Positions 37,528 to 63,146 of a stretch of DNA of 64,000 nt are shown in pieces (the stretch's first letter is position 1; the number at the start of each line of letters is the position of its first letter). The translations under genes and the position numbers were made by a program. Below the pieces are notes generated by a model, which had not been told where the DNA came from, did no database searches, and worked only from the letters and a program-made list of their open reading frames with translations. Source of the DNA: a bacterium OL-1 (lineage in GTDB: Bacteria > Actinomycetota > Coriobacteriia > Coriobacteriales > Atopobiaceae); the NCBI GenBank assembly GCA_000752675.2, contig LM994627.1, positions 430,429 through 494,428 of the forward strand, written 5' to 3'.

Positions 37528-38775
37528 CTACAGGGCGCCCTTGATCATCTGATCGCCCTCCTTCATGATGACCTCCATGTTGTCGGGCGTGAGGTCGCGA
37601 ATGTTGGCAAGCGGGTCGCCGTTGACAACGAGCAGGTCGGCGTACTTGCCCTTCTCGAGCGAGCCGAACTCGTCCTCGTGGTGGACCATCTTGGCGCCGT
37701 TGAGCGTAGCGGCAACGATGGCGTCCATAGCGGGAATGTCGCAATGCTCGACCCACGCGTAAACCTCGTCCAGCGTGGTGTAGCCATACGGCGTCGAGAA
37801 GCTGAAGGAGTCGGAGCCCACGGTGAGCGTGACACCCAGCTTGTACGCACGGTTGAGGTTGGCGTACGAGCGCGCGATGCCCTTCTCGGCGTTGTCCTTG
37901 CCGGGCCACTTGTCCAGCTCGGGAGTCCACTCCGGCGGGTACGTTGCGTACCAGCTGGGCAGAAAGCCAACGGTGGGCGTGAAGAAGGTGCCCTGCTGGG
38001 CCATGAGGTCCATGGTCTTGTCGTCAAGCTCGAAGCCGTGGATGAGCTGCTCGCAGCCAAAGCGCACCGAGTCATACGCAGCCGAGATGGAGTTGTAGGA
38101 GTGCGACCACACGGGGATGCCGATCATTGCGCACTCATCGCACACGGCCTTGATCTCCTCGGAGCTATACAGTTGGGCGCGACCGGAGTCCCAGCGCCAG
38201 ATGCCACCGCCCGTTGCCCAGATTTTGATGGCATCGGGGTTCTCGCGTAGGCGCATGCGGATGGCGTGGCGAAGCTCCCATGGGCCGTCTACCTGGTCGC
38301 CCCATGGGTGGCCGGTCTTGGACATCTCGAAGGGAAGCTTGTGGCAATCACCGTGGCCAGCGGTGCGGCAGAAGCCCAGACCGGTCGCGAAAATACGCGG
38401 CCCCTTCATGACGCCCATGTTCACCAGGTCGCGGATGGCGATGCCGTTACGGCCGATCTCGCAAACGGTGGTGAGGCCGTGGGTCACGGCGTCATAGGCC
38501 TGCTTGACCGCGCACGCCTGCTTTTGGGCAACGGTCTCGATGACCCAGTCGTTGTCGTTGTCGGTGAGGTTGCCCGAAAAGTGAATGTGCGTGTCGATGA
38601 TGCCCGGCATGATGGTGCGTCCGGAGATGTCACGCACCTCGTAGCCCTCGGGAATCTCGGTGGCGGGACCGGCATAGGCAATCTTCTTGTCATCAACCAG
38701 GACAAGGCTGTCCTCTACCGGTGAGGCACCCGTACCGTCGACGAGCTTGCCACCCTTGAATGCGATCTTGCTCAT
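37528..38775 (-). CDS. Metal-dependent amidohydrolase (prolidase/imidazolonepropionase-like)
   Basis: A 415-residue member of the amidohydrolase superfamily. The HxH metal motif is in PGIIDTHIHFSGN (near residues 57-69). Further metal ligands are the Lys in AIKIWATGGG, His in WSHSYNS, His in LIHGFELDD and Asp in VGSDSFSF. The C-terminal GSLEKGKYADLLVVNGDPL is typical. It resembles the Xaa-Arg/Xaa-Pro dipeptidase (Sgx9260-type) group, but the substrate is not certain. An APC permease gene lies upstream with 84 bases between, suggesting uptake and hydrolysis of one compound. Confidence 0.85.
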   Translation of the reverse strand: MSKIAFKGGKLVDGTGASPVEDSLVLVDDKKIAYAGPATEIPEGYEVRDISGRTIMPGIIDTHIHFSGNLTDNDNDWVIETVAQKQACAVKQAYDAVTHGLTTVCEIGRNGIAIRDLVNMGVMKGPRIFATGLGFCRTAGHGDCHKLPFEMSKTGHPWGDQVDGPWELRHAIRMRLRENPDAIKIWATGGGIWRWDSGRAQLYSSEEIKAVCDECAMIGIPVWSHSYNSISAAYDSVRFGCEQLIHGFELDDKTMDLMAQQGTFFTPTVGFLPSWYATYPPEWTPELDKWPGKDNAEKGIARSYANLNRAYKLGVTLTVGSDSFSFSTPYGYTTLDEVYAWVEHCDIPAMDAIVAATLNGAKMVHHEDEFGSLEKGKYADLLVVNGDPLANIRDLTPDNMEVIMKEGDQMIKGAL

Positions 38776-38859
38776 ACCAAAACCTCCAATTCGTGCGAGC
38801 CTTGCAGTGCCTGTATCGCTAGTCGCGCCGTGGGCGCGCTGTAGCCTTGCTGTGACCGG

Positions 38860-40320
38860 CTAGCTAGTACGCGCCGCGTCAACGTTGGCGTGCCTGTTGC
38901 CAAAGATCGCCAGAATCAGGATGCCGATGAGGACCCAAGCGGCGATGATGGCCCACTCCACGCCATTAAGGGCGGCGGGGCTAAACGGCAGAACCATCAG
39001 TGCGATCACGATGGCTCCCGCGGCAATTGCGCAGCCAATGCCCACCTTGCCGCCGTTGACCTTGTACGGGCGCGGCAGATCAGGCTCGGTCTTGCGCAGA
39101 CGCATGCAGGCGCACGCCGCCATGGTGCAGGCAAAGATGAAGCCCAGAGAGGCAACGTTCGTGAGCGGGACCAGCATGTTCCTGCCAAGGAAGGGGCCCA
39201 CCAACGTAAGGACAGCCATCACGATGTTGCCGTTCTTGGGGGCACCGGACTTGGGGTCAATCTCAGCGAAGGACTTTGGAAGCATCTCCTTGCGTCCCAT
39301 GGCAAGCATCAGGCGCGTGGAGGCGCCAAAGAAGGAGTTCATGGGGCCAAGGGGTCCCAGTGTCGCGATGATGAGCATCGCAATGTAGAAGAAGATGTTA
39401 ATGCGCTCCAGAACCGCCAGGGCAGGGACTGAGGAGCGCACGAACTCATGCCAGTCGATGATGGTGCCAAACGAGTAGATGCAGATGAGATAGAACACGC
39501 CAGAGGCGAGAAGCGCGATGGCAGGAACGAGACCAAACTTCTTCCAGTCAAGGTTTGCCGAGGCCTCCTCGGCCTGCTGCGGGATGGTGTCAAAGCCAGC
39601 GTAGAAGAAGGGCGTCATGACCAGGACAGCCACGATGCCGCCAAGCGTTGAGGTGGCTTCGGTTGCGGAGCCGCCAGCGGCGTCAGTCACCTCGGAGAAC
39701 ACGGGAAGCGCGTTGGAGGGCGAGCCGGTTGCAAAGGAGATGACCATGGCCAGCACCATACCTGCGAGAAGCGCCTTGGTGAGGAAGCTGGAGAGCTTTG
39801 CCGCAGCACCTGCCCCGCGGAAGTTGAGGACGATCACCAGCACAGCAAAGCCCAGCGAGATGATGGTGGGCCACAGGTACACGTCTGCACCCATGATGGT
39901 GTAGAGCTTCACCGAACGAAGCCACGCAAGTGCTGGGATCTCTGCGAAGCGGTCGGTGAGCAGCGTGGATATGGCGATGGCCTCCCAGGGGCATAGTGGG
40001 GCGTTCCCCAGAAGTAGCATCCAGCCCGTGAGGAAGCCCATCTTGCGACCAAAGGTGCGGTCCACGTACTCGATGATGCCGCCCGAAATGGGGATTGCCG
40101 CGGTAAGTTCGCCAAAGCACATGCCAATGGGCACGAGGAAAATCGCGCCGATGGCGAAGGCGATCATCGCGGGGATAGGGCCTCCGCCCAGCACCATCCA
40201 GTCGCCCACTAGCAAAACCCATCCGGTGCCGATGATGGCACCAAATCCGATGGTGAAGAAGTTGAAGAGCGTGAGCTCCTTCTTCATTCCGCCGGAGGTG
40301 GAGGTGTTGTTGTCTGCCAT
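38860..40320 (-). CDS. APC-superfamily amino acid permease
   Basis: A 486-residue permease with about 12 membrane helices. The APC hallmark GFGAIIGTGWVLLVGDWM near residues 24-41 forms the substrate-binding unwound helix. AAIPISGGIIEYVDRTFG and FFYAGFDTIPQQAEEA are also characteristic. The substrate is probably an amino acid or amine, perhaps the product or substrate of the adjacent amidohydrolase. ATG 40320 follows GAGGAGGGGG. The 290 bases before it contain no gene; a short hairpin at 40415-40429 is the only structure I see. Confidence 0.87.
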   Translation of the reverse strand: MADNNTSTSGGMKKELTLFNFFTIGFGAIIGTGWVLLVGDWMVLGGGPIPAMIAFAIGAIFLVPIGMCFGELTAAIPISGGIIEYVDRTFGRKMGFLTGWMLLLGNAPLCPWEAIAISTLLTDRFAEIPALAWLRSVKLYTIMGADVYLWPTIISLGFAVLVIVLNFRGAGAAAKLSSFLTKALLAGMVLAMVISFATGSPSNALPVFSEVTDAAGGSATEATSTLGGIVAVLVMTPFFYAGFDTIPQQAEEASANLDWKKFGLVPAIALLASGVFYLICIYSFGTIIDWHEFVRSSVPALAVLERINIFFYIAMLIIATLGPLGPMNSFFGASTRLMLAMGRKEMLPKSFAEIDPKSGAPKNGNIVMAVLTLVGPFLGRNMLVPLTNVASLGFIFACTMAACACMRLRKTEPDLPRPYKVNGGKVGIGCAIAAGAIVIALMVLPFSPAALNGVEWAIIAAWVLIGILILAIFGNRHANVDAARTS

Positions 40321-40610
40321 TCCCCCTCCTCTCAGATCCATAAACACTCAGGTCGTGCGACCACGGAAGATATTCGTTCCGAAGCGCTTTCCAGGAGAAG
40401 AGGAATGGGTTGAGCCCGCCGCGAGCGGGGTTCGAACGCGCGCCAGCGGGGATGCTGACGCCAATCAAAACGCGGTAAGCGAATTGACCTCATGCAGAAG
40501 TTGAATGATACCCGGAACCAGCGATGGCCACAGGGCATGGCTCACGAAGCGCAAGAGTGTAAGCGGGACTGCCCCTTGGAAACCCGTGCGGTCAAGAAAT
40601 TGTAAGGCGG

Positions 40611-41261
40611 CTACCCGAGAAGAACGCGCCCAAGCTCATCGACCGTGTCTACCACCGTTGTGGCACCAGCGCTGAGAAGCTCTTCTCGGGATCCGTAGCC
40701 ATAGGTGACGCCCACGAATCCCACCGAGGCAGCCTGTGCGCCCCGCGCGTCCTGGGCCCGGTCTCCCACCATGGTGACCATGTTCCTCTCGTCACGCATA
40801 CCCAGACGAACGAGAGCCTCGTTGATCACATCTGCCTTTGCGGTGCGCTTCTCGTCAAGCGTCGCCCCTACCACCTGGTCAAAGAGACCCGTCATCCCAA
40901 AGTGGTCAAGGATTCTTTGCACGAACGGCTCGGGTTTGGACGAAGCCACGCAGGTGAGGATGCCCGCCGCCCTCAGTGTGCCGAGAAGTTCAATAATCCC
41001 CTGGTACGGGTGGTTCTCAAAGAGGCCCACGGTTGTGTAGCGTTCACGATAGAGTTCGAGCGCCCGCAGTGCCTCCTCGTGTGACATGCCGGAGAAGTCC
41101 ATGAACTCCTGAACGAGCGGTGGACCAATGAAGACCGTGAGGGCAGAAGGGTCCGGCACCTCTCGTCCCATCTTCTCGAGGGCGTACTGGACGGACCTTA
41201 CGATTCCCTCCCCGGATGCGGTGAGTGTCCCGTCGAGGTCAAAGAGCACCGCCTTGGGCAT
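40611..41261 (-). CDS. HAD-family phosphatase (phosphoglycolate phosphatase-like)
   Basis: A 216-residue HAD subfamily IA hydrolase: motif I LFDLDGTLTASGEG (Asp 8 nucleophile, Asp 10), motif II CVASSKPEPF, Lys in KRTAKADVI, and motif IV MVGDRAQDARGA. The FIGPPLVQEF cap sequence is that of Gph/PpaX-type proteins that dephosphorylate phosphoglycolate or split pyrophosphate. AGAGGAG lies before ATG 41261. The gene lies 55 bases beyond a large inverted repeat (41316-41394), which is probably in its leader or promoter. Confidence 0.87.
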   Translation of the reverse strand: MPKAVLFDLDGTLTASGEGIVRSVQYALEKMGREVPDPSALTVFIGPPLVQEFMDFSGMSHEEALRALELYRERYTTVGLFENHPYQGIIELLGTLRAAGILTCVASSKPEPFVQRILDHFGMTGLFDQVVGATLDEKRTAKADVINEALVRLGMRDERNMVTMVGDRAQDARGAQAASVGFVGVTYGYGSREELLSAGATTVVDTVDELGRVLLG

Positions 41262-41315
41262 ATTCACTCCTCTGCCTATCAGTCGTACCAAGAAGCCATA
41301 TAACGCCGCTCACTA

Positions 41316-41394
41316 GAGTTTAGCTCCTGTTCTTAAACGGCTCCTACATTTGCCCAGGTCGCTGGAAACCGTTATAAGAAATGGAGCTAAACTC
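41316..41394. repeat. 79-bp imperfect inverted-repeat element
   Basis: A 25-base left arm (41316-41340) and a 26-base right arm (41369-41394) are complementary except for two adjacent mismatches and one extra T, around a 28-base centre. The outermost 12 bases, GAGTTTAGCTCC, are perfect. The element lies between the hypA terminator and the HAD phosphatase start. It could be a miniature inverted-repeat element or a structured leader. No target-site duplication is obvious. Confidence 0.75.
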
Positions 41395-41440
41395 CGCAGC
41401 GAGAAGTTCCGCAGCGAACGGCCTCGCGCGGCGAGGAGGG

Positions 41441-41473
41441 CAAAAGCGGCCCCGGCGCAAACCCGGGGCCGCT
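41441..41473 (-). terminator. Rho-independent terminator after hypA
   Basis: AGCGGCCCCGG (41445-41455) pairs perfectly over 11 bp with CCGGGGCCGCT (41463-41473) around a 7-base loop. On the minus strand it is followed by TTTTGCC. It ends the hypB-flavoprotein-hypA operon. Confidence 0.88.
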
Positions 41474-41476
41474 CGC

Positions 41477-41821
41477 CTATACAGCCTGAATGTCCTTCAC
41501 CATCACGTCCCGACCGGTCACGAGGTGGGTGTTGTGACCTCCGCAGGCGGGACAGGCCTTTCCGTACTCGGTGGTGCGGTAGGTCTTCTTGCAGTCGCGG
41601 CAGTACGAGATGCCCGCAACGATAATCATGTTGAGCTCGCACTCCTGCATGTGCTCGGTGCGAAGTTTTGCCCACTCGAAGCAGTCGCGGAAGTAGCTGG
41701 GCACGATGGTGCTGACCTCCCCCACCTCGAGGTCAACGCGCACCACCTTGCTCACGCCGTTCTTGCGAGCGGCCTCCTCGACCATGTCGATCACGCGCAC
41801 GACAATGCCCAGCTCGTGCAT
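41477..41821 (-). CDS. hypA: Hydrogenase/urease nickel incorporation protein HypA
   Basis: A 114-residue nickel metallochaperone. The N-terminal MHELG supplies the Ni-binding His2, and the zinc site is made by CRDCKK and CPACGG (about residues 74-95). It delivers nickel with HypB to NiFe hydrogenase, or in some bacteria to urease. Its ATG overlaps or abuts the end of the 968-residue flavoprotein gene, so the two are co-translated. No nickel enzyme gene is in the window. Confidence 0.95.
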   Translation of the reverse strand: MHELGIVVRVIDMVEEAARKNGVSKVVRVDLEVGEVSTIVPSYFRDCFEWAKLRTEHMQECELNMIIVAGISYCRDCKKTYRTTEYGKACPACGGHNTHLVTGRDVMVKDIQAV

Positions 41822-44728
41822 CTACGCGTTCTCCTCACGCGACTCGTCACTCGAGTTGCCCGTGTAGGGGTGCGTGCGGTTGAACCCCTGGTGGGTGCGG
41901 TTGTACTCGCGGCGCTTCTCGCGCATGGTCTTGGCTTCCTCCGAGCCGGAGTTTGCCACGATCTTCACTGCACGCTTGATCGCATAGCTAGCGAGCCCAC
42001 CCACCTTGTCCTCGGCCACGCGCATGTCGGTCATCTCGGGGCGGTCCCGGTAGAGGTGGATGGCGTCGAACTTGCAGCGGGTGGTGCAGATGCCGCAGCC
42101 AATGCACTTGTTGGGGTCGACAACGGACGCGCCGCAGCTCAGGCAGCGCTTGGTCTCGATGGCCACCTGCTCGGCCGTGAGCGTACGGTGCGTGTCGCGG
42201 AAGCGGTCGGCACCCTCGGGGTCCATGCCCTCCTCCTGGCGGCCCGCATTGTCGTACGAGTCGATAAGAAGGTCGTCCTTGTCGAGCTCAAGGTAGTTGT
42301 GGCGGTCGCGGCCAATGGTCATGCTCGCACCCTCCTGCACGCGGCGGTGCAGCGACTCGGCGGCATAGTGGCCAGCGGCAATGGCGTCAATCACGAACTT
42401 GGGACCAGTGAGGACGTCACCGCCCACAAAGATGTCCTTGTCTGCCGTCTGGAACGTGAGGGCATCTGCCTGCGGGTAGTTGCCGTGATGGAAGGTGACC
42501 GAACGGCCGTCGAGAAGGCCGCCCCACTCGATGGCCTGCCCAATGGCAAAGACCACCTGGGTGCAGGGCACGGTGATAGTCTCATCCTCGTTGTAGAGCG
42601 GCGAGAAGCGCTTGGTCTTGGGGTCGATGACCTGCGTGCAGCGCTTGAAGACGACGCCCTTCACATGACCGGACTCGTCGACGAGCACTTCCTTGGGGCC
42701 CCATCCGTTCTGAACGGCTACGCCATCCTCGAGCGTCTCGGCAATCTCTGCGTTGGTGGCGGGCATCTCGTCGCGCTGCTCGAGCGAGACCATCGTGACG
42801 GTAGCGGCACCACGGCGCTTGGCGTTACGCGCGCAGTCGACGGCCACATTGCCGCCGCCAACCACCACGACGTCACCGGACATGGCAGGGTTACCCTTGG
42901 CCATGGAGTCCTCGAGGTAGTGCACGGCAACGTCCGTGCCCTCGGCTGTGTCACCGGGGACGCCGGGACGCCTACCACCCTGGCAGCCCACGGCCACGAA
43001 GAACGCCTGGAAGCCCTGCTCGCGCAGCTGGTCAAGCGTCACGTCGCGGCCAACCTCAACGCCACAGCGAATCTCGACGCCCAGGCTCTTGATAATCTCG
43101 ACCTCGGCGAGGAGCACGTCTTTCTCGAGCTTGTAGGACGGGATGCCGTACATCATCATGCCGCCAGGCTGCTCGTGCTTCTCGAACACCACGGGCGAGT
43201 AGCCGAGAAGCGCAAGGTAGTACGCGCAGGAGAGACCAGCGGGACCAGCGCCGATGATTGCGATTTTCTGGTCGAAGTGGTCGTGGACAGAAGGCACCGC
43301 GCGGTTGGGGACGGCGTGCTCGGCCTGCGCAAGGTCATAGTCGGCGACGAACTTCTTTACCGCGTCGATGGAGACGGGCTGGTCAATGGTGCCGCGCGTG
43401 CAGGCGTCCTCGCAGCGCTTGTTGCAGATGCGGCCGCACACGGCGGGGAACGGGTTCATGGTGCGGATGAGCTCTACGGCCTCCTGGTACTTGCCCTCCT
43501 TGGCCTTCTGGAGGTAGGCCTGCACGGGCACGTGTGCCGGGCAGGCAGCCTTGCAGGGCGCAGAGCCCGTGGGCCAGGTGTTGTGCATGCGGGCGGTGTC
43601 GCGGTAGTTCTCGTCCCAGGCGTACTTGCCCCAGTGGATTGCGTCGGGGAGGATGGCGAGCGGGTACTTGGGCTGCTCGCCGTTGGCGCGGCAGAGCTTC
43701 TGGCCAAGCTTCACGGCGCCAGCTGGGCACGACTCCACGCAGAGGCCGCAGGCAACGCAGTTCTCGGGCGTGACCTTGGCCGTATACGAGCTGCGCGACA
43801 TGTTGGGGGTGTTGAAGAGCATGCTTGTGCGCAGCGCGTTGCAGATCTTCACGTCGCAGTTGCAGATGTCAAAGATCTTGTTCTCACCGTCGATATTGGT
43901 GATCTGGTGGACAAAGCCGTTGTCCTCGGCACGCTTGAGGATCTCCAGCGCCTCCTCGGTGGTGATGTAGTGCGCGCGCCCCGTTTCGACGGTGTAGTCG
44001 GCCATGTCACCAACTTGGATGCACCAGTCATCGGGGTCGTCGGCGCAGCCCTCCCCAAGCGTCGTGCGAGAGTAGCGGCAAGAGCAGATGCCCGCAGCGA
44101 TGTGTCCCTCGTACTTCTTGAGCCAGTAGGAGATGCGCTCGAGCTTGACGGCCTCGTTCTGGAAGTTGACGGCCTCCTCGACGGGAATTACGTGCATGCC
44201 AATGCCGTCACCGCCGGGCGGAACCATCTGGGTGATGCCCGCCAGTGGAATAAAGGTCATACGCTCGAAGAAGTTGGCGACCGGGGGATTCTTGTCGATG
44301 CGATCCTTGCTCGAGTTGAAGAGCTCGGCAGAGCCAGGGACAAAGAAGGGCAGGCGCCAGCGCTTGATGCGCGGGGCGTCAGCGATGGGACCGTCGTCGT
44401 TGTAGTGGTCGCCGTAGTCGTACTCAAGGATACCGATGACGCTCATCTCATCAAGAAGCTCCTGCAGGTGTGCGGGCTCAATCTCGGGTGCCAGGGTCAT
44501 CATCTGGTCAAAGTCGTAGAACTGGCGGAGCTTCATGCGGTTGCCAAGGTCGACCATCTCGTCGGTGAGGACCTCCTTGAGGCCCCAGTACTCGGGATCG
44601 TCTGTCTTGACGCCGCCGACCTTGTGCTTCACGACGTCGGTGATCTTGCGGCCGAGCTTTGCCACGGCAGCGTTGCGCTGGGCCTCGTTCTGATAGATGG
44701 AGCGGGGCTGTTCAAACTGTTCTGGCAT
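41822..44728 (-). CDS. 968-residue Fe-S flavoprotein: novel N-domain + ferredoxin + GltD-like + ferredoxin
   Basis: Four parts can be seen. Residues 1-315 hold paired cysteine motifs (GICSCRYSRTTLGEGC, C214-C228; DICNCDVKIC, C289-C296) I cannot assign. Residues 324-334 carry a 4Fe-4S motif CVACGLCVESCP. Residues 385-845 form a glutamate-synthase-small-subunit-like (GltD) reductase with C392/C396, C431-C443 clusters, FAD motif IAIIGAGPAGLSCAYYLA (489-506) and NADPH motif VVVGGGNVAVDCARNA. The end carries CIGCGICTTRC. It probably passes electrons from NAD(P)H through FAD to Fe-S partners. It lies between hypB and hypA, so a link to a hydrogenase is likely (inference). Confidence 0.85.
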   Translation of the reverse strand: MPEQFEQPRSIYQNEAQRNAAVAKLGRKITDVVKHKVGGVKTDDPEYWGLKEVLTDEMVDLGNRMKLRQFYDFDQMMTLAPEIEPAHLQELLDEMSVIGILEYDYGDHYNDDGPIADAPRIKRWRLPFFVPGSAELFNSSKDRIDKNPPVANFFERMTFIPLAGITQMVPPGGDGIGMHVIPVEEAVNFQNEAVKLERISYWLKKYEGHIAAGICSCRYSRTTLGEGCADDPDDWCIQVGDMADYTVETGRAHYITTEEALEILKRAEDNGFVHQITNIDGENKIFDICNCDVKICNALRTSMLFNTPNMSRSSYTAKVTPENCVACGLCVESCPAGAVKLGQKLCRANGEQPKYPLAILPDAIHWGKYAWDENYRDTARMHNTWPTGSAPCKAACPAHVPVQAYLQKAKEGKYQEAVELIRTMNPFPAVCGRICNKRCEDACTRGTIDQPVSIDAVKKFVADYDLAQAEHAVPNRAVPSVHDHFDQKIAIIGAGPAGLSCAYYLALLGYSPVVFEKHEQPGGMMMYGIPSYKLEKDVLLAEVEIIKSLGVEIRCGVEVGRDVTLDQLREQGFQAFFVAVGCQGGRRPGVPGDTAEGTDVAVHYLEDSMAKGNPAMSGDVVVVGGGNVAVDCARNAKRRGAATVTMVSLEQRDEMPATNAEIAETLEDGVAVQNGWGPKEVLVDESGHVKGVVFKRCTQVIDPKTKRFSPLYNEDETITVPCTQVVFAIGQAIEWGGLLDGRSVTFHHGNYPQADALTFQTADKDIFVGGDVLTGPKFVIDAIAAGHYAAESLHRRVQEGASMTIGRDRHNYLELDKDDLLIDSYDNAGRQEEGMDPEGADRFRDTHRTLTAEQVAIETKRCLSCGASVVDPNKCIGCGICTTRCKFDAIHLYRDRPEMTDMRVAEDKVGGLASYAIKRAVKIVANSGSEEAKTMREKRREYNRTHQGFNRTHPYTGNSSDESREENA

Positions 44729-44731
44729 CTC

Positions 44732-45403
44732 TTACGCCCTCCAGAGGTCGATTTCGTGGCGAACCCAATCGGCGAGCTGGTCCATGCCCTCGCCCGTCTT
44801 GGCAGATATCTTGATGAGCTGACAGTTGGGATTGCGCTGGCGCAGATAGGTCTCGAAGGTGTCGATGTCAAAGTCAAAGTACGGCAGCACGTCAATCTTG
44901 TTGAGAAGCACGACGTCGGCCTTCTCGAACATGAGGGGGTACTTGAGGGGCTTGTCGTCACCCTCGGGAACTGAGAGGATCACAGCATTCTTGGACGCGC
45001 CGGTATCGAACTCGGCGGGGCACACGAGGTTGCCCACATTCTCGAGGAAGACAAGGTCAAGCCCCGTGGCATCAAGGGAGTCGATGCCCGTGCGCGTCAT
45101 TCCGGCATCCAGATGGCACATGCCGCCAGTGTGGAGCTGGATAGCGCGGGCTCCCGTCTGGCTGATGATGCGGTCGGTGTCAACGGCTCCGTCGATGTCC
45201 GCCTCCATCACGCCAATGCGATAGGTGTCCTTGAGCAGGTTGATGAGACGTGTGAGCGTCGTGGTCTTGCCCGAACCTGGGGAGCTCATGACGTTGAGGA
45301 GGAACTGCTCGCGTGACCTGAGGTCTTCTCGTACGCGGTCTGCCTCAGCGTCATTGTCGGCAAAGACACTCTCTTTGAGCTCGATTACTTTGACTTCCTC
45401 CAT
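44732..45403 (-). CDS. hypB: Hydrogenase nickel incorporation GTPase HypB
   Basis: A 223-residue SIMIBI-class GTPase that drives nickel transfer. The G1 loop is SSPGSGKTTTL, G3 region ENVGNLVCPAEFDTG (with the Cys that helps bind metal), and G4 NKIDVLPYF. The His-rich N-terminal nickel store of many HypBs is absent. ATG 45403 follows AGGAGAGGAAG; the frame is open 40 codons upstream but lacks family features. It is the first gene of the operon. The large flavoprotein gene starts three bases after its stop. Confidence 0.95.
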   Translation of the reverse strand: MEEVKVIELKESVFADNDAEADRVREDLRSREQFLLNVMSSPGSGKTTTLTRLINLLKDTYRIGVMEADIDGAVDTDRIISQTGARAIQLHTGGMCHLDAGMTRTGIDSLDATGLDLVFLENVGNLVCPAEFDTGASKNAVILSVPEGDDKPLKYPLMFEKADVVLLNKIDVLPYFDFDIDTFETYLRQRNPNCQLIKISAKTGEGMDQLADWVRHEIDLWRA

Positions 45404-48217: not shown

Positions 48218-48418
48218 ATGAGCAATGCACCGCAGGTAGCAGGCTCGACCGAGGAGGAGCGACGCGCGTACGTGAAGGAGCGCTTCCCCTGCATTGCCGA
48301 CTGCGACCAGTGCGGGTTCTGCGCCGCCTACCACGGCAGCGATCCCGAGACGGCCTACGCCGACTATATCGCAGGCAAGGCAGAGTTCCTGGAGGTCTCG
48401 CTGCGCTACCAAAGGTAG
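48218..48418 (+). CDS. Small conserved Cys-rich protein
   Basis: A 66-residue protein with the motif FPCIADCDQCGFCAAYHG (C-x3-C-x2-C-x2-C), a YADYIAGKAEFLEVSLRY C-terminal helix and an acidic/basic start. The four close cysteines suggest a zinc or iron-sulfur site. GAGG precedes ATG 48218; an ATG at 48197 is also in frame. It lies divergent from the isochorismatase-like gene, with 110 bases between, including a GGGTAC/GTACCC inverted repeat. I do not recognise the family. Confidence 0.7.
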   Translation: MSNAPQVAGSTEEERRAYVKERFPCIADCDQCGFCAAYHGSDPETAYADYIAGKAEFLEVSLRYQR

Positions 48419-48462
48419 ATAGGAGCGTGAGCCGCCCCCTGGGGTGTTTTCCCTCCTGGCCC

Positions 48463-62112: not shown

Positions 62113-63146
62113 TGATTCTCCTTTGATGCTTGCTCTCGCTCTTCCATACCATAGAACTCCGTGCGGGGCGCACGGGTGAGAAGTCCTTCCATCGCGTCAT
62201 CTATGGGCCTACCCTCGAAGAGTACGGAGTGTACGGCAGCCGTGATGGGTACCTCGATGCCGCGCTCTTGCGCAAGCTCGAGGACCGAGACAGAGGCGGG
62301 AACGCCCTCGACCACCATGTGCGTGCGCGTCTGGTAGGACTCGAGCGTCTCGCCTGCCACGAGCGCGCGGCCAAAACTCCTGTTGCGCGAGTGCTCTGAG
62401 GTGCAGGTGACCACAAGGTCGCCCATACCGGCAAGGCCCATGCACGTCATGGGGTTGCCACCCAGGGCCGCCACAACACGACCAATCTCGGCGATGCCAC
62501 GGGTCATGAGGACTGCCAGGGTGTTGTCCCCCATCCCCATGCCGCTTGCAATGCCGCATGCGATGGCCACCACGTTCTTGACAGCACCGCAGCACTCGAC
62601 GCCTCGGACATCATCGCTCACGTAAGCCCTAAAGGTGGGTCCAGCAAGGATGCCCTGGAAGTAGGCAGCGGTGTCTGCGTCCTCAGAGGCAACGACTGCC
62701 GCCGAGACCATGCCTCGGCAGATTTCCTCCGCATGGTTTGGGCCCGAGAGTGCGGCGACGCGAGCGGGGTTACCCAGCTCCTGAGCCGCTACTTCGTGCA
62801 TGAGGAGGTGAGTACCGCACTCCATGCCCTTGGAAAGGACGAGCACACGTACGTCCTTTCCAAGGTGGGGTGCCAGGTTGCGACAGGTCTCGCGCAGAAA
62901 GGCAGAAGGGGTGGCCAGAACCGCAGCATCGACATCGAGTGCAGCCAGGGCAAGGTCGCTTGTGGCGCTCACATTTGCAGCCAGCGTGTAGTCCGGAAGG
63001 TGATTGGGGTTCCTGCGGTCACGGTTCATGGCATTGGCGGCCTGAGACGAACGTGCCCACAGCACGACCTCGTTAACGGCAGGCGCAACGAGGCCCGTCA
63101 TCGCCGTGCCCCAGGAGCCTGCGCCTATGACGGCAACGCGGCTCAC
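62106..63146 (-). CDS. gpsA: Glycerol-3-phosphate dehydrogenase [NAD(P)+]
   Basis: A 346-residue enzyme making glycerol-3-phosphate for phospholipids. The Rossmann motif VAVIGAGSWGTAM is at residues 4-16, the KGME motif follows LVLSKGMECGT, the GPNHAEEI motif is present, and the catalytic lysine is in CGAVKNVVAIACGI. GTG 63146 lies within the plsY stop (GTGA), with GAGGAGGG upstream. plsY uses its product. Confidence 0.96.
   Translation of the reverse strand: MSRVAVIGAGSWGTAMTGLVAPAVNEVVLWARSSQAANAMNRDRRNPNHLPDYTLAANVSATSDLALAALDVDAAVLATPSAFLRETCRNLAPHLGKDVRVLVLSKGMECGTHLLMHEVAAQELGNPARVAALSGPNHAEEICRGMVSAAVVASEDADTAAYFQGILAGPTFRAYVSDDVRGVECCGAVKNVVAIACGIASGMGMGDNTLAVLMTRGIAEIGRVVAALGGNPMTCMGLAGMGDLVVTCTSEHSRNRSFGRALVAGETLESYQTRTHMVVEGVPASVSVLELAQERGIEVPITAAVHSVLFEGRPIDDAMEGLLTRAPRTEFYGMEEREQASKENQC

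Follow-up and report, generated by a model that had tools for sequence, protein, structure and literature searches.

The window analysed here, a 64,000-nt stretch of the genome of the Atopobiaceae bacterium OL-1, carries a long, nearly perfect inverted repeat between a hypA-like gene and a HAD-family phosphatase gene. What kind of element is this hairpin, and what does it owe to the genes beside it? The initial annotation had offered two answers, a miniature inverted-repeat element or a leader hairpin controlling the HAD gene. Here, the hairpin is compared with further copies in its own genome, its genus and its family. With slightly less than even confidence, we read it as a long-standing solo copy of a palindromic, REP-like element that is linked to genes of nuclease type.

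The hairpin and its setting

The features of the locus are the following.

41310..41400, + strand: class A palindromic element, the 91-bp modelled unit, with the strand set by its asymmetric core
41316..41340, + strand: left arm of 25 nt, GAGTTTAGCTCC followed by TGTTCTTAAACGG
41347..41362, + strand: core CATTTGCCCAGGTCGC in the centre of the inverted repeat; the family core is YGTTTSCSCAGKTNGC with variants
41369..41394, + strand: right arm of 26 nt, CCGTTATAAGAAATGGAGCTAAACTC
40611..41261, − strand: HAD-family phosphatase gene, downstream of the element, which probably starts at ATG 41261, within an ORF open from TTG 41291
41446..41472, − strand: terminator-like stem behind hypA, GC-rich and followed by T's on the − strand, apart from the element
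41477..41821, − strand: hypA-like gene, upstream of the element

The gene at 40611..41261 is presumably a HAD phosphatase, judged from its DLDGT motif, and the gene at 41477..41821 is one that we take to be hypA-like. Read from the sequence, the 79-bp inverted repeat at 41316-41394 has the anatomy that the initial annotation had described, namely arms of 25 and 26 nt around a centre of 28 nt, with perfect pairing of the outer 12 bases and, further in, two mismatches and a bulge of one base. Its separateness from the hypA terminator was likewise confirmed, as the terminator-like stem at 41446-41472 is distinct. Both neighbouring genes lie on the − strand, and the element is placed ~55 bp 5' of the likely HAD ATG (41261) and 82 bp 3' of the hypA-like stop (41477). 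The RNA fold of 41310-41400 reaches −35.1 kcal/mol on the + strand (z −5.47) and −39.5 kcal/mol on the − strand (z −5.50). On either strand 0 of 200 shuffles folded as low, thus the hairpin is far beyond chance, and together with its multi-copy occurrence (see below) this rules out a chance hairpin. Within the window, 41316-41394 is the sole site where an inverted repeat scoring at least 14 coincides with the core motif. Two further inverted repeats above the score limit, at 62846 and 55850, are without the core. Window positions 38000-45000 gave no Rfam match up to E 1, and a search for plasmid relatives of the hairpin locus gave no match.

A dispersed family with one core and several arm classes

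When its own genome (G000) was searched with the window element by BLAST, 12 rows were obtained for 11 separate places, as one place was matched on both strands. A covariance model built from 11 copies found, in the same genome at E ≤0.1, 38 places (54 rows, of which 16 are the opposite strand of another row). Sixteen copies belong to the class of the window element (class A, arms GAGTTTAGCTCC...; one of them, C2:580631, has a six-base block altered on both arms), 18 to class B with different arms (GTTCTTTAGCGG...CCGATAAAGAAC), and 4 are others. The arms measure ~25 nt, exactly 91 nt is the length of 30 of the 38 copies, and the same asymmetric core (CGTTTGCCCAGKTNGC), in one variant or another, lies at the centre of all copies. 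According to our own gene calls, all 38 are intergenic (neighbouring genes divergent for 6 copies, convergent for 12 and in the same direction for 20), and the solo copies adjoin unrelated genes.

In the 30 copies of 91 nt, 82.9% of arm positions pair in register, versus 29-48% after a shift of the partner arm by 1-6 positions. Pairing across classes is low (49% for class A left with class B right arms, 52% for class B left with class A right arms), therefore both arms changed together between classes A and B. Within class A, per-copy covariation was not seen above shuffles: among 11 aligned copies, 7 pairs changed on both sides, against a shuffle mean of 6.6 (271 of 500 shuffles gave at least as many). 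The class A arms thus behave like conserved recognition sequences and not like freely covarying stems. One hybrid copy (L262, G000:C2:734538-734632) combines a left arm of class A with a right arm of class B around the exact core, and it adjoins an insertion sequence with integrase-core and HTH domains. This single case suggests exchange, i.e. a crossover, at the core.

Age of the solo copies

The window copy is found at the matching place in 7 of the 8 genomes of the genus, with no match there in G004. Over these seven genomes the site shows one compensated pair (in G006) and several broken pairs, and the right arm is damaged in G001. We conclude that this is an old copy, which most of the genus has in common and which is now decaying. 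These results do not support the leader proposed for the HAD gene. A single-copy leader is ruled out by the multiple copies in the genome, and the element is not a single copy conserved in place with covarying arms, since 38 copies exist and covariation does not exceed that of shuffles. More generally, the hairpins could be transcribed and act at each site as leader, terminator or mRNA stabiliser, the HAD leader included, which the strong fold and the presence at the window site in 7/8 genomes would fit. We regard this as improbable, because covariation is at shuffle level in class A, the window site has one compensated change beside its broken pairs and damaged arm, Rfam gave no match, and the arms are common by sequence to many unrelated genes.

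Twelve other copies of the genome were tested in relatives by means of joined flanks. At seven of these sites, at least one relative has both flanks around an element-sized gap, four gave no clear reading, and one was a clean absence. The absence is in G007:C42, and there the flanking sequence is missing too, which points to a deletion or a larger insertion. Most readable sites are thus old, and solo copies show few traces of having moved recently; the search for empty sites in relatives, proposed with the initial annotation, thus yielded one clean absence against seven sites shared with at least one relative and four not clearly readable. Target-site duplications, the other proposed mark of a mobile element, were looked for at the ends of 34 copies, where direct repeats occurred at chance level (one of at least 7 bp, 0.76 expected).

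Taxonomic range of the core

The window element was matched in all 8 genomes of its genus. In the family, the covariance model matched 16 of 140 Atopobiaceae genomes, with 11-30 rows in each of the 8 genus genomes (among the best 30 candidates per genome). The degenerate core alone occurs in 88 of the 140, often once or twice; several genera are far above the reversed-pattern control, with 20, 13, 12 and 22 matches versus 0 in G044, G051, G048 and G130. Several other Atopobiaceae genera have the core midway between inverted arms that differ wholly in sequence, and other degenerate-core matches are without arms. The exact core was found in 28 of 296 sampled Coriobacteriia genomes, all 28 in the family of the window (reversed control 0). 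Among the matches listed from named genomes, 29 rows reached an inverted-repeat score of at least 10, and every one of these is a Coriobacteriia record (Olsenella, Tractidigestivibacter, which NCBI places in Atopobiaceae, Parafannyhessea, Atopobium and further Coriobacteriia). Exact-core matches listed from other phyla, which we use to gauge chance, score at most 8; among the listed rows, at least five from Coriobacteriia fall below 10 as well.

Some core palindromes form tandem arrays, with a period of 125 bp in L256 (G048:C1:604969-605234) and of ~103-112 bp in L257 and L258 (G044). In Olsenella sp. SIG37 (L165), the palindrome arms TTTTCGGACACAACC recur in several further copies around the same gene. 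Two other candidates were dropped. Phage-borne copies were considered as the exact core occurs on 21 viral contigs; of the 20 with usable flanks none has inverted arms (scores ≤8), so that these matches look like chance. Integron attC-like sites were considered since the arms vary while the structure stays, and were dropped because the conserved part is the centre and not, as we understand such sites, the base.

Palindromes beside A3-family genes

In two genera, core elements flank related genes of one family, here termed A3, on both sides. The A3-family protein (372 aa) has homologues in 122 of the 140 Atopobiaceae genomes. No match was obtained in Pfam for the 25 members scanned, in NCBIfam and PADLOC for three members, or in a PDB sequence search with the family alignment. 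We read 34 A3-family loci: the 30 best genomes contributed one each and the window's own genome four. Repeats, for the most part palindromic, flank many of them, with arms that vary from gene to gene, and several of these hold a recognisable core variant; a match to the core pattern within the flanks was found at only 6 of 30 loci.

Loci and controls were scored by one procedure, with at least 34 bits required for a repeat shared by both flanks. Such a repeat was scored at 13 of the 34 loci and at 11 of the 32 with valid flanks, compared with none of the 76 controls (20 random regions and 56 window genes). The two loci left out of the 32, L283 and L289, lie on short contigs that made the scored flanks overlap, though both show shared repeats by reading; L279 and L286, whose flanks are partly misplaced, are counted as negatives. 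The remaining 21 of 32 loci are without a strong shared repeat, and among the 11 positives at least one (L284) shows no evident palindrome. A strong hairpin in at least one flank was present at 22 of 34 A3-family loci, 0 of 20 random regions and 4 of 56 window genes (three of these four owing to the window element). Around the gene at C8:51727 of the window's genome (L300), palindromes of a further class (class D) cluster at the matching gene in 6 of the 8 genus genomes, and single copies or arms of class D also occur elsewhere. Elsewhere in the window's genome, class F palindromes stand in three copies upstream, and upstream only, of the gene at C9:167824 (L420), with a solo copy on C10.

The AlphaFold2 model from 25 A3-family members reached a pLDDT of 87.8. 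Its C-terminal part (~187-325) resembles the homing endonuclease I-Bth0305I (3r3p; Z 8.6, rmsd 2.7, 97/97 residues) and Vsr (1cw0; Z 7.8), and more weakly AbaSI (Z 5.6), while the modelled N-terminal half has a weak resemblance to Rv2827c (Z 4.6). Best Z scores of 7-8 are common for models without a clear match, and Foldseek alone gave E ~1; therefore the fold resemblance is supportive and not decisive. Residues E191, D236, N247, D249, G250 and H253 are invariant in the 25 sequences, and we take the acidic and histidine residues among them to belong to the active site. From this model, the C-terminal domain probably resembles Vsr/EDxHD-type endonucleases, and the protein is a predicted nuclease.

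Class A and class B pairs around a second gene type

In G002, G003 and G005, class A pairs 1.1-1.3 kb apart enclose a gene (L307 type) for a protein of 344-361 aa, and in G004 the class A pair encloses a shortened ORF (207 aa). A paralogue (L418 type), 60% identical to the L307-type protein, is bracketed by class B in one genome (G005). The window's own genome and three relatives have a third paralogue, and this gene is surrounded by short palindromes or repeats of other kinds. The motifs GE-x-DG-xx-K and ER-x-RES are invariant in 7 L307-type and paralogue proteins, and we read them as a PD-(D/E)XK-type nuclease end. In PDB the family gave only weak, unrelated matches by sequence, its structure model has a pLDDT of 42, and hhalign returned a probability of 1.5, i.e. 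no match, between its profile and the modelled A3 family. The presumed nuclease nature of the L307 type therefore rests on these motifs. PADLOC gave weak AbiEi matches for the L307-type protein (best E 0.0036). A nuclease-motif paralogue is also bracketed by 109-144 bp direct repeats in L421 and L422 (G001 and G002, matching G000:C8:141045), and these repeats consist of short hairpins whose sequence differs between species.

Class A pairs also enclose accessory non-nuclease genes at L306 and L309 (Fic in L306), L305 (AAA/DUF4143), and L308, L310, L311 and L313 (alpha/beta hydrolase). These genes may be cargo or lie there by chance. Fourteen paired-copy regions were examined, and the 11 interior ORFs scanned (from 11 regions) were Fic, AAA/DUF4143, alpha/beta-hydrolase or without Pfam match, with no transposase among them. 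As class A pairs stand around such genes too, the bracketing is not exclusive to nuclease genes.

The miniature element of the initial annotation can now be judged. It holds in so far as the hairpin is one of 38 dispersed intergenic copies, and it fails as a classical MITE on target-site duplication, given end repeats at chance; no transposase was among the 11 ORFs scanned between paired copies. Like MITEs, the window family is small, dispersed, non-coding and built as an inverted repeat, and the hybrid copy lies beside an insertion sequence. That an ordinary MITE family, moved by a conventional transposase, came to lie near nuclease-type genes by chance is nevertheless unlikely: the 34 copies lack target duplications, the regions scanned hold no cognate transposase, different arm classes have one core in common, which is unexpected of independent transposon ends, and the bracketing of nuclease genes is far above controls.

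One complete unit is variable between species.

48417..48462, + strand: empty intergenic site (G000 C10:478845/478890), which in relatives holds a unit of two class A elements around a nuclease-motif gene

The unit of G002 (~1.47 kb) is present at the matching place in G005 and G003, and in G004 with the shortened ORF. At the matching site in G000 (window 48417-48462), G001 and G007 it is missing and 44-45 bp are left, and G006 is too diverged to be read there. Gain elsewhere or deletion here could both account for the absence.

Discussion

The hairpin means more than the initial annotation had supposed, for it is a solo member of a system of palindromes that spans the family and is paired with nuclease-type genes. 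At the level of the sequence, the hairpin belongs to a multi-copy family of ~91 bp with a central asymmetric core, several arm classes, class-specific flanking of genes and one unit that is present or absent. The bracketed proteins are putative nucleases, by the fold model for the A3 family and by the motifs as we know them for the L307 type. In the open-licence literature we found no account of Atopobiaceae palindromes or of palindromes bracketing Vsr-like genes.

REPs and REPtrons are the closest comparison. REPs are short intergenic palindromes of many copies, with several families per genome, that bracket a gene and lie mostly between same-direction or convergent genes (PMC3733652). As in REPtrons, palindromes of the gene's own family bracket it and are also dispersed; the gene is not a RAYT here, and the bracketed genes have nuclease motifs instead of being HUH/tyrosine transposase genes. 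This REPtron-like bracketing links the L307 type to class A, L300 to class D, L420 to class F (upstream only) and, in one genome, the L418 type to class B. The window family differs from REPs in its length (~91 bp with arms of ~25 nt, compared with 20-40 bp) and in an asymmetric central core common to families with unrelated arms, and the consensus ends of classes A and B are without a GTAG or CGTC tag.

The genus also harbours RAYT-type transposase genes (Y1_Tnp) at 11 places in 7 of its 8 genomes. Six of these 11 loci were read, and five are bracketed by palindromes of their own, which demonstrates that the procedure finds REPtron-like loci. L426 (G000:C10:281364), L425, L427, L428 and L429 are RAYT-type genes with palindromes of their own and apparently ordinary REPtrons. 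In principle, these transposases might move the palindromes in trans, and both their presence in most genus genomes and the REP-like intergenic distribution of the family (PMC3733652) agree with this. We consider it very improbable, since no class A or B match and no core was found in the six loci read, the palindromes at five of them are different, and G006 has 11 model matches yet no Y1_Tnp match.

The enzymes that the A3 family resembles provide a second comparison. Its modelled C-terminal domain has invariant acidic and histidine residues and aligns with EDxHD homing endonucleases and Vsr, a match that is supportive and not decisive; unlike these enzymes, its genes lie between palindromes in intergenic DNA with no intron seen around, its N-terminal half is different, and cleavage would be a prediction here. 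In fungal mitochondrial double-hairpin elements, which are organellar, palindromes are mentioned alongside homing endonucleases, and we know of no gene-specific arms or shared core in them.

A third comparison is AbiEi, the antitoxin of type IV AbiE systems, which binds an 11-bp inverted repeat around 27 bp in its promoter, extending to 23-bp arms (PMC3985639). It is a winged-helix DNA-binding protein whose inverted target arms, 11-23 bp long, stand on either side of a spacer, and the L307 type is a weak sequence match to it. I-Bth0305I forms a dimer on its target, which spans nearly 60 bp (PMC3943268). Taken together, these make it plausible that sequence-specific recognition of the palindrome arms takes place. 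In contrast to AbiEi, the L307-type protein presumably has a nuclease-type C-terminal part, as we read its motifs, and the repeats here flank the gene on either side and are also scattered through the genome.

The main and serious alternative follows from this likeness. The palindromes may be operators of AbiEi-like or Vsr-like proteins that regulate themselves, much as AbiEi uses inverted repeats to repress its promoter, with the dispersed copies as a regulon or decoys. The AbiEi sites (PMC3985639) resemble arms of ~25 nt around a 28-nt centre; the AbiEi matches of the L307 type and the Rv2827c resemblance of the A3 N-terminal half, both weak, would fit a DNA-binding regulator of this kind, as would class A arms conserved as sequence and not by per-copy covariation, and most readable sites being common to several species. 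The setting of the copies argues against it. They also occur downstream of genes, only 6 of 38 are placed between divergent genes, the remaining 12 convergent and 20 same-direction places being poor ones for promoters, solo copies stand beside unrelated genes, and one whole unit comes and goes between species. On balance we consider the operator reading doubtful, though it deserves to be taken seriously.

Returning to a mobile element tied to nuclease-type genes, its mechanism might be as follows. The N-terminal half of the bracketed protein would recognise the inverted arms of its own class, and the C-terminal domain would nick or cut at or near the core. As the break is repaired, a new intergenic site might then receive a copy of the palindrome or of the complete unit, so that spread would proceed much as is thought for RAYT transposases with REPs, or for homing endonucleases with their own genes. 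Solo copies such as that of the window would be non-autonomous or left over and would persist vertically.

It is tempting to speculate that this is a new class of mobile element, in which Vsr/EDxHD-type nucleases with arm-specific palindromes and a common central cut motif spread themselves and non-autonomous palindromes in Atopobiaceae, i.e. a REPtron rebuilt on an enzyme of the homing-endonuclease type, whose arms and protein would co-evolve like a lock and its key. We put this forward tentatively, as a possibility that we rate well short of even. The palindrome family may be an undescribed kind of small genomic parasite. If this is true, REP-like genome parasites would have arisen a second time with an unrelated enzyme, and a protein family that is present in most Atopobiaceae genomes and has no Pfam match in the members scanned would gain a function. 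The natural pairs of protein and arm class would let recognition be read off directly, and many puzzling intergenic hairpins in Atopobiaceae would be explained.
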